From positions 1 through 25,127 of IMG/VR virus record IMGVR_UViG_3300049812_004027: a stretch of 25,127 bases of DNA, one strand, 5' to 3'. The notes below the pieces were generated by a model. The model was not told the origin of the DNA. It saw only the letters and a program-made list of their open reading frames with translations, and did not search any database. Positions 12,652 through 13,869 of this stretch are shown here, piece after piece (position 1 is the stretch's first letter; each line of letters starts with the position of its first letter). The translations under genes were made by a program, and so were the position numbers. This DNA is from a virus.

Positions 12652-13053
12652 ATGACAATAAAAGCACAAGAGGCAAGACTTTGGCAAAAGGTCAAAAAGA
12701 ACTTAACTGGTTTTCATTTAACCCGCATAGAATCTAGCACAATCAATGGGATTCCAGACATTCATGCAGCCAATAAAGATCATGTATTTTGGATTGAACT
12801 TAAATCTGATGAAGCTAATTATCCTAAATTAAATAAGTGGCAAATCGTATGGATTAATAAGTATGTTAAGGCAGGGGGCAAGGTAATTATCTTGGATGAG
12901 ACCCTCTCGAAGAAGCTGCTTAAACTTTACAGACCGGTGTCCAGTTTCACTGATCCTCGTTCCCTCGTCTCGTTTGCCTCGTTCTCGTTCCCGTTACAAT
13001 GGCCACGGATCCGGGAGACCATCCTTCAGGAGCTGGTAACCTGTGCAGCGTAA
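12652..13053 (+). CDS. VRR-NUC type nuclease, 3' end made of the island repeat
   Basis: Residues 1-95 form a PD-(D/E)xK nuclease of the VRR-NUC family: E8 in the first helix, NGIPDIHA (about 32-39), FWIELKSDE (about 46-54) with the catalytic E-x-K, and a helix QIVWINKYVKAGGKVIIL. Such proteins resolve branched DNA or help trim packaging substrates. The last ~35 residues (DPRSLVSFASFSFP..., RIRETILQELVTCAA) are encoded by GC-rich DNA with TCTCGT repeats, and related versions recur downstream. After its TAA stop the same frame stays open for about 40 codons and repeats the tail motif. Whether the tail is native or gained from the island is unclear. Confidence 0.85.
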   Translation: MTIKAQEARLWQKVKKNLTGFHLTRIESSTINGIPDIHAANKDHVFWIELKSDEANYPKLNKWQIVWINKYVKAGGKVIILDETLSKKLLKLYRPVSSFTDPRSLVSFASFSFPLQWPRIRETILQELVTCAA

Positions 13054-13350
13054 TCTCGTTTGCTCGTCTCGTTCTCGTTCTCGTCTGAACTGGAAAAGGG
13101 CCAACGGACCATCCAGCAGCGGGAGCTGCCTTCCAGGAGAAGCTCGTGTCGTTATCTGCCCCTCGTTTTTTTACCTCTTTAGTTAGTTCGGGGGGCTGGT
13201 AACGGCATGGCACCTGCAGCTGGATCTCGTCTCGTTGTCAAGGAGAAAGATCTCGTTCTCGTTTGAAAAAGAGCACTGGCACGGGCAGCGTACAGTTCAG
13301 GAGCTGGGATCCTGAAGGAACTGTCTTAGAAACAGTGTGAAAGAAAGCTC

Positions 13351-13379
13351 TTGACATATATCCCATCAGGTCTTATGTA
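13351..13379 (+). promoter_or_regulatory. Promoter of the island gene
   Basis: A perfect TTGACA (13351-13356), 17-bp spacer containing ATCCCAT, then TATGTA (13374-13379). The consensus -35 and exact spacing compensate for the weak -10. Confidence 0.6.
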
Positions 13380-13386
13380 AGGTCTG

Positions 13387-13428
13387 CGCACGGCAATGGT
13401 GTTGAACTAACCATTCAACTGCCGTGCG
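13387..13428 (+). promoter_or_regulatory. Structured 5' leader with two alternative inner stems
   Basis: CGCACGGCA (13387-13395) pairs with TGCCGTGCG (13420-13428), a 9-bp GC-rich base stem. Inside it, either GTTGAA (13401-13406) pairs with TTCAAC (13414-13419), or ATGGT (13396-13400) pairs with ACCAT (13410-13414); the two exclude each other. It lies at the very 5' end of the predicted transcript, 12 nt before the AAAGGAGG site. A regulatory leader (protein or ligand binding, or transcript protection) is inferred. Confidence 0.55.
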
Positions 13429-13451
13429 TTAACTAACAAAGGAGGATATCG

Positions 13452-13643
13452 ATGAAGCTCGAAAAATTAATTAAGAAAATTAACAAAGACAACGCGCCAC
13501 CGGATGGATGGTCCGCTCATGATGCCGTGAAGAAGGACAAACCTGAACCAGGCAAAGTATACGCACTTACTGGTGGTCCCGGGGCACGCTGCATTGCTAA
13601 TGGTTACTCATGGAAGGATAGTGTCGTTGGGGACGACAAATGA
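13452..13643 (+). CDS. 63-aa cargo gene of the GC-rich island
   Basis: A very good ribosome binding site (AAAGGAGG) lies 7 nt before the ATG, and the gene has its own promoter and a structured leader. The product starts with a Lys-rich helix (MKLEKLIKKINKDN), then a Pro/Asp-rich middle (APPDGW...KPEPGKVYAL) and a Gly-rich end (TGGPGARCIANGYSW). It is soluble with a single Cys. Codon use is clearly richer in G and C than the flanking phage genes, which suggests acquisition from elsewhere. No family recognised. Confidence 0.68.
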   Translation: MKLEKLIKKINKDNAPPDGWSAHDAVKKDKPEPGKVYALTGGPGARCIANGYSWKDSVVGDDK

Positions 13644-13716
13644 AGGCCTCGTCTCGTTTAGAAGAGTCCTGGCACTGGCAGCAGGTAGCCTGTGCCAGCA
13701 GCTCCAGGAGCAGGTT

Positions 13717-13818
13717 ATGGAAGTAGTAGCGTTGTACCTTATCTTGCTATTCTTGTACCCCGAAGCTGTGCTCTTGGTTACCGGACTCTTCGTTCTCGTT
13801 CTAGCTGCAGCTTTCTAA
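13717..13818 (+). CDS. 33-aa very hydrophobic peptide in the island
   Basis: ATG 13717 follows AGGAG by 7 nt. All but two residues are uncharged: MEVVALYLILLFLYPEAVLL and then VTGLFVLVLAAAF. That gives two short membrane helices around a Pro-Glu turn, or one long helix. The sequence FVLVLA is written by the TTCGTTCTCGTTCTAGCT repeat, so the island repeat is part of the coding sequence. The open frame extends further upstream but only this start has a ribosome binding site. Pinholin-, toxin- or signal-like roles are possible. Confidence 0.5.
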   Translation: MEVVALYLILLFLYPEAVLLVTGLFVLVLAAAF

Positions 13819-13869
13819 TCTCGCTCGTTTGACTGACAGCTGGATCCGTGCAGCGTAACACTTGGGCTT

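Follow-up and report, generated by a model that had tools for sequence, protein, structure and literature searches.

The GC-rich island that follows an Hjc-like nuclease gene in a relative of the pelagiphage HTVC023P is probably a DNA-level recognition array maintained by selection. A short word, CTCGT, is repeated with strong strand polarity from inside the 3′ end of the nuclease gene to well past its stop codon, between the genes for the small and large terminase subunits (TerS and TerL). More tentatively, the array is put forward as a directional one that is read by a phage protein and most likely belongs to a packaging-initiation region, with a control block for several mini-genes laid over it. 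The DNA analyzed here (the window), an IMG/VR record, has 25,127 bases; its best megablast match, to HTVC023P, is 76% identical over 7% of the query.

Results

A polar word array between the terminase genes

The order TerS, 98-aa protein, nuclease, array, TerL (Table 1) is found in HTVC023P and several other lineages, and the 98-aa protein has homologues in both HTVC023P and HTVC027P. The island lies between TerS and TerL, as a pac site might, in the window, HTVC023P, HTVC027P and several further lineages.

Table 1. Features of the window around the island, with the evidence for each.
Feature	Position	Strand	Evidence
Terminase small subunit (TerS)	11741..12268	+	PHROG 51, E 2.4e-12; Pfam Terminase_2, 29.7 bits (cut-off 26.1)
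98-aa conserved protein between TerS and nuclease, function not assigned	12352..12648	+	PHROG 25889, E 6.5e-21
Hjc/VRR-NUC-like PD-(D/E)XK nuclease	12652..13053	+	Pfam Hjc, AlphaFold2, Foldseek
Polar word array, 20 CTCGT, first five within nuclease tail	12956..13828	+ (all copies)	Positions, shuffles, conservation
Unit resembling nuclease-tail DNA	13056..13129	+	nhmmer, 22.3 bits, E 1.1e-5
Conserved RNA hairpin, pyrimidine-rich loop (13164-13190) with CTCTTT	13146..13208	+	Loop motif, both-sided pair changes
Second, marginal nuclease-tail-like unit	13226..13311	+	nhmmer, 10.4 bits, E 0.054
Promoter-like TTGACA-17-TATGTA, ATCCCAT in spacer	13351..13379	+	TTGAC-N5/6-TCCCA conservation
Ribosome-binding leader AACTAACAAAGGAGG, partly complementary to hairpin loop	13431..13445	+	Position, complementarity test
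63-aa mini-gene (MKLEKLIKK...KPEPGKVYALTGG...)	13452..13643	+	Relatives encoded at 65 viral loci
Putative 33-aa membrane mini-protein MEVVALYLILLFLYPEAVLLVTGLFVLVLAAAF	13717..13818	+	Hydrophobic segment conservation
Palindrome TTTAGAATCGTTCTAAA, operator-like, putative function	13945..13961	.	TTTAGAA-N3-TTCTAAA conservation
Next gene (MGLDQHAH...), conserved island boundary	14028..14465	+	tblastn anchors
Terminase large subunit (TerL)	15406..16977	+	megablast over annotated HTVC023P TerL; tblastn, 70.4% to HTVC023P TerL

GC content is 31-32% at 12.3-12.9 kb and 44-54% at 12.75-14.1 kb, and declines gradually (39-44%) to 14.55 kb. Between 12924 and 14027 there are 20 copies of CTCGT and none of its reverse complement ACGAG; 2000 shuffles of the same stretch gave a mean of 1.4 CTCGT and a maximum of 7. 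The whole window holds 23 copies, of which 20 form the array, two are at 14505-14515 and one is at 952. These data bear out the initial annotation, which had described a GC-rich island with recurrent motifs in an AT-rich phage, and the tail and unit translations that it quoted agree with the sequence. The island that it placed at 12955-13860 is real, although associated features reach approximately 13.96 kb, slightly past that end. Directly past the array, at 13864-13917, is a C-rich run with CACCACC-type repeats that are partly tandem (CCACCTGCACCA, 2.2 copies). The two copies at 14505-14515 (CTCGTTCTCGTA) are beyond the island, within the gene that comes after the next gene.

The best 80 of 293 relatives were then compared. 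One ends inside the nuclease gene, and the island is present in all 79 that have sequence beyond the nuclease stop, with 9-21 CTCGT within the first 1.5 kb or less. Since all 79 carry the island and the cultured phage HTVC027P carries its own version, mis-assembly is very unlikely. A full anchor on the next gene was missing in 10 of the 80 loci; with the window added, 70 islands were counted, and removal of 25 near-duplicates left 45, the window included. Together these 45 islands contain 787 CTCGT (11-28 each) and 17 ACGAG, where shuffles predict 60.8 and 50.1. For the longer word the asymmetry is complete, with 644 CTCGTT and no AACGAG (expected 16.6 and 16.0). The array always starts inside the nuclease 3′ end and runs into the next kilobase.

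Nine contigs of 30-62 kb contain 27 exact CTCGTTCTCGTT doublets, every one of them on a single strand and no more than 2 kb from the nuclease core. Twenty-five precede the next gene, and the other two, which overlap, are just beyond it in L137. Two further searches gave 125 loci, part of which share contigs with the first relatives search. Each of these with at least nine CTCGT per kb on one strand has a nuclease upstream, save L128 and L166, whose contigs start within the nuclease 3′ end.

The nuclease and its tail

The gene in which the array starts encodes a protein with the residues and fold of a PD-(D/E)XK nuclease, consisting of a catalytic core (approximately residues 1-97) and a tail (98-133) with a strand at 106-112 and a helix at 117-132. 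Residues E7, R25, E27, D36, E49 and K51 are conserved across 40 nuclease sequences, and D36, E49 and K51 are invariant. The Pfam archaeal Hjc family matched at 25.3 bits (cut-off 21.1), and VRR_NUC was absent among the matches listed at E≤0.1; Foldseek with the nuclease model returned Hjc structures as best matches and VRR_NUC structures further down the list. The earlier label "VRR-NUC protein" is therefore fair but inexact. The profile matched no solved structure by sequence and no NCBIfam family.

By Pfam match and fold the protein thus resembles archaeal Hjc and viral VRR-NUC Holliday-junction nucleases; unlike them, it has a strand and a helix at its C terminus that are encoded by DNA carrying the array word. 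AlphaFold2 on the 40-sequence alignment gave a best model with a mean pLDDT of 91.2 (73-86 for the other four), and low values in the tail were confined to the last three residues. According to this model the tail is a real, structured part of the protein, and in a global profile alignment with the L177 lineage the tail aligns as well. The query of the first relatives search included the tail, which biases those loci toward tailed nucleases; only the core was used for the HTVC027P-like and L177-like searches, and the whole protein for the HTVC023P-like search.

Within the tail, CTCGT spans three codon frames (CCT CGT; CTC GTC; TCG TTC). The codons TCG, TTC and TCG of residues 110-112 are present in 42, 45 and 45 of the 45 loci, and several adjacent codons vary. 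GC3 rises from 0.34 in the core to 0.65 in the tail, and every one of the 45 loci has its higher value in the tail. Third-base conservation averaged over the tail (0.70) does not exceed that of the core (0.72) across the 45 loci, so that only the word stands out.

The same site carries different words in other lineages

Other lineages have other words in the nuclease tail and the following kilobase: GCTTG in HTVC027P relatives, TTTCCC/TTCCC(A/G)T in L177 relatives, and GCCTCG/CTCGCC in L393-397, whose arrays, unlike their tails, also contain CTCGTT. Usable loci in the further groups were 73 of 80, 50 of 58 and 50 of 53 listed. Sharing was scored when the tail contained a word at least once and the DNA beyond the stop at least three times; loci with the same core end or with fewer than 600 nt after the stop were dropped beforehand (25/81 in the window clade, and 17/73, 19/50, 6/35, 3/10 and 1/5). 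The array word is the locus's own tail word in 56/56 loci of the window clade, 55/56 with GCTTG, 27/31 with TTTCCC and 3/4 with GCCTCG. There were eight off-diagonal cases, six in the window clade and one each in the L177 and HTVC023P groups.

In the HTVC027P record, 25 of the 33 GCTTG are at 16-19 kb, and GC content is 45-49% at 16.5-18 kb. The annotated island genes gp32-gp34 are on the minus strand and the words on the plus strand. Genome-wide there are 75 CAAGC vs 33 GCTTG; a second cluster on the opposite strand, with 14 CAAGC in 1 kb, is in or near gp82-gp83 at 50-51 kb (MN698241.1). The conclusion of complement depletion is therefore not extended to HTVC027P. The nuclease gene of this phage (16216-16587) is unannotated in the record, and its tail (DIMKLDACGLKLEPCCLGLEACGLHLENLN) is encoded by the GCTTG repeats. 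According to PMC12753301, gp33 and gp34, from the corresponding stretch, and gp30, which adjoins TerS, are placed in extra expression clusters outside the early, middle and late ones.

HTVC023P and three relatives have AT-rich direct repeats at the same place, three copies of 30-65 bases that are 41-65 bp apart, and no short word array was found at the site in these four loci. One of the relatives (L387, 4434-4480) has a perfect GC-rich stem followed by a T-run, resembling a terminator, between the nuclease and the direct repeats. HTVC023P and HTVC027P both have HTCC1062 as host yet are unlike at this site, so the word is not dictated by the host. The word also fits neither TerS nor nuclease identity one-to-one, and as sole determinants both were rejected: the TerS proteins of L137 and L396 are 62-66% identical to that of HTVC023P, yet these loci carry CTCGTT.

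Similarity of the repeat units to the nuclease tail

A DNA profile of the 45 tails gave 29 matches above 10 bits in 26 of the 45 islands, 12 of them above 15 bits. No match above 10 bits was obtained with the reverse complement, reversed or dinucleotide-shuffled islands, or DNA further downstream; shuffling the linkers with CTCGT kept gave four above 10 bits and none above 15. It had been suggested that the units of the window are alike beyond CTCGT. This holds for the unit that starts at 13056 and is marginal for that at 13226. The unit at 13648 gave no match to the tail profile, and the WHWQQVACAS "echo" of ELVTCAA proposed there is therefore unsupported.

These similarities allow the island to be explained as degenerate copies of the nuclease 3′ end, in which duplicated tail DNA drifts without function and is homogenized by gene conversion and slippage. 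The tail-profile matches and the word common to tail and array within each repeat-bearing lineage are as expected from such duplication, which the initial annotation had also proposed, and because the tail is a structured part of the protein, the protein alone could preserve the seed. As the whole story, however, duplication is unlikely. One strand is enriched and the other depleted, and this is held at one conserved place across long divergence; the TCG TTC TCG codons are nearly invariant; the corresponding place in HTVC023P relatives is occupied by unrelated repeats; the CTCGTT of L393-397 is absent from the tail; the words at 13.6-13.8 kb have no recognizable tail similarity; and the island also contains promoters, a hairpin and mini-genes. 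Under the preferred reading of a selected recognition array, copying of tail DNA would probably be the way in which the array grew, with its uniformity kept by recombination.

A proposed mini-gene control block overlaps the array

The promoter-related pattern TTGAC-N5/6-TCCCA occurs in 44 of the 45 islands and nowhere in 233,653 bases outside the islands of the same contigs. The promoter pattern with TCCCAT has 14 matches in the nine long contigs, all past the nuclease core and on the array strand, 13 before a retained next gene and one where the contig piece ends; the reversed pattern gave two.

The hairpin loop motif is likewise present in 44 of the 45 islands (the exception is L017). Changes on both sides of a pair were seen in 4 of 16 pairs (23 sequences) and 6 of 13 (19 sequences) for the two hairpin forms, as raw counts with no shuffle control, and several pairs are G-U. 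The alignment A2 held 23 of the 25 clade-A hairpins. Folding of positions 13133-13252 gave a z of -4.0 (40 shuffles). Strong RNA folding was not found island-wide: across 30 of the 45 islands the mean z was -0.40, and 13.0% of 547 folding windows fell below -2, compared with 16.9% of 142 downstream and 3.3% of 150 upstream. Rfam returned two weak matches, both below the gathering cut-off, and a tRNA or known Rfam RNA was rejected as the identity of the island.

The loop is complementary to the ribosome-binding leaders of the island genes (AACAAAGGAG) over a mean of 7.7 nt, vs 4.5 nt for 66 other leaders (7 nt in the window). Across clades the match is locus-specific (0/300 permutations), and within clades covariation was not significant (123/300), in a test on 44 loci of which one (L012) kept no leader under the filter and was scored 0.

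No PHROG or Pfam match was found for the 63-aa mini-gene. Just upstream of its ribosome-binding site, at 13389-13428, is a strong inverted repeat (GCACGGCA...TGCCGTGC) that is missing from the L010 island. The block is closed by the 33-aa hydrophobic mini-protein (LYL.LL.L.P....L.TG...L.L....F). A similarly hydrophobic C-terminal segment is encoded in 43 of the 45 islands, vs 18 of 45 in the minus-strand control; the product could be holin-like or another small membrane protein. Ahead of the next gene, the 17-bp palindrome TTTAGAA-N3-TTCTAAA occurs in 41 of the 45 islands and looks like a repressor operator. In the other groups it is within 3 kb of the nuclease at 13/73 HTVC027P-like, 19/50 HTVC023P-like and 0/50 L177-like loci.

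Control at the RNA level might account for the locus if the hairpin loop pairs with the AACAAAGGAG leaders and CUCGUU words act as a sponge for an RNA-binding protein. The both-sided changes and G-U pairs of the hairpin, the complementarity of its loop to island leaders and the confinement of the promoters to the island are consistent with this explanation, but the specificity of loop for leader is seen across clades only. In predicted RNA, moreover, the words of the window clade are no more unpaired than in linker-shuffled controls (0.404 vs 0.440; higher in only 14 of the 45 islands), so that RNA exposure of the words was rejected, and in HTVC027P the word strand is independent of the annotated gene strand. 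Because the words are not unpaired and those of HTVC027P run on the plus strand over minus-strand genes, recognition as DNA is favored over RNA, and an explanation of the island by RNA-level control appears rather improbable. The hairpin can be regulatory while the words are not.

Discussion

The words are polar, their reverse complement is depleted, they depend on neither codon frame nor host, and their site between the terminase genes is fixed; together these properties speak for directional recognition of the array, as DNA, by a phage protein. We suggest a cis-acting locus with two overlapping layers. In the first, 11-28 copies of a short strand-polar word, from inside the nuclease tail to past its stop, would be read on double-stranded DNA by a phage-encoded DNA-binding protein, and packaging would be started and given direction there in a pac-like manner. 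In the second, the island-only promoters, RNA hairpin, AACAAAGGAG leaders, small proteins and palindrome would make up the control of the mini-genes. Packaging is a candidate role, suggested as most likely by the position of the locus between TerS and TerL and by the precedent of phages SPP1 and SF6.

As described in PMC4737164, the SPP1/SF6 pac region has sets of direct repeats by the terminase genes, across promoters and coding DNA, that differ between relatives. The island likewise has direct repeats near the terminase genes, and the TerS of the window is of the Pfam Terminase_2 type. Unlike those of SPP1/SF6, its repeats begin in a nuclease gene and are words of 5-7 bases in 11-28 copies of one polarity, and for the island no packaging cut is known. 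Recognition DNA embedded in coding sequence has precedents as well. The iterons of the phage lambda origin are inside the coding sequence of O. According to PMC9611059, the pac site of P22 is within the TerS gene. Those sites are in the gene of their own reader, whereas the reader of the island is putative and the array extends a kilobase beyond the gene.

The packaging reading is tentative because neither TerS nor nuclease identity tracks the word cleanly and because the SF6 TerS DNA-binding domain, according to PMC4737164, shows little preference for the pac repeats. According to PMC9599517, which calls HTVC023P-type phages widespread SAR11 phages, 81 environmental genomes of this type were closed via terminal overlaps; this is compatible with headful packaging. 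Contigs run through the island, and the HTVC027P record has no terminal repeat of at least 20 bases. In the window clade 5 of 66 contig ends are within 0.9 kb and do not pile up, so that a sharp cos end was rejected for this clade; ends were more frequent in two other groups (6/38 and 9/32). Two contigs, L242 (57.9 kb) and L399 (59.6 kb), stop 86 and 183 bases downstream of the nuclease match, at a real end or an assembly break.

The Hjc-like nuclease, or its complex with terminase, might itself read the word, so that the gene carries its own target array. We consider this improbable. If true, a self-encoded word turning over with the nuclease tail would be a private tag for each phage lineage, steering cutting and packaging to its own DNA rather than to that of the host or of competing phages.

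Iterons of a replication origin, read by a putative phage initiator, would also be direct repeats at a conserved place, and the AT-rich repeats of HTVC023P relatives, spaced at 41-65 bp, look iteron-like. The GC-skew profile of the 25-kb window has no clear switch at the island, however, and the island adjoins the terminase genes and not the polymerase region, which makes an origin quite improbable. Short polar words with strong strand bias, KOPS and Chi, are known as guide words. The island words are likewise short and strand-biased but, unlike KOPS and Chi, are clustered at one locus and are lineage-specific among the phages of one host. A mobile or Chi-like word, whether a selfish repeat docked beside the nuclease gene, as had been proposed, or a recombination word for a host enzyme, would fit the polarity and shortness of the words but is highly improbable: all 27 CTCGTTCTCGTT doublets of the nine contigs are near the nuclease core with no dispersed copies elsewhere, which rejects a dispersed selfish repeat, and a host-set word, expected to be common to the phages of one host, is rejected by the difference between HTVC023P and HTVC027P.

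For the control block, the nearest parallel is in phage T4, where promoter-stem-loop cassettes lie between small genes. The island shares a promoter and stem-loop beside small, changing genes; unlike the T4 cassettes, it is a single locus with fixed gene neighbors and a word array.

Direct-repeat sites, iterons and pac boxes are familiar kinds of component. The apparent novelty lies in the long polar array that starts in a nuclease tail, with a tail-shared word that is swapped per lineage at a fixed site. No description of such an array was found in the open-access literature searched, where the exact words occurred only in unrelated papers, and the literature searched gave no account of how HTVC023P-type phages mark DNA for packaging. 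Polar words that change fast at a fixed site would allow the evolution of packaging (or initiation) specificity to be tested directly, and HTVC023P and HTVC027P, both cultured on one host, are natural comparators. The island also brings to light a compact cluster of unstudied mini-genes that have promoters and an RNA hairpin of their own. Elsewhere in the window, short tandem repeats (TGGTGTATC and TGGTGTATCTA) are present at 10787-10883, upstream of a gene for a basic 258-aa protein.
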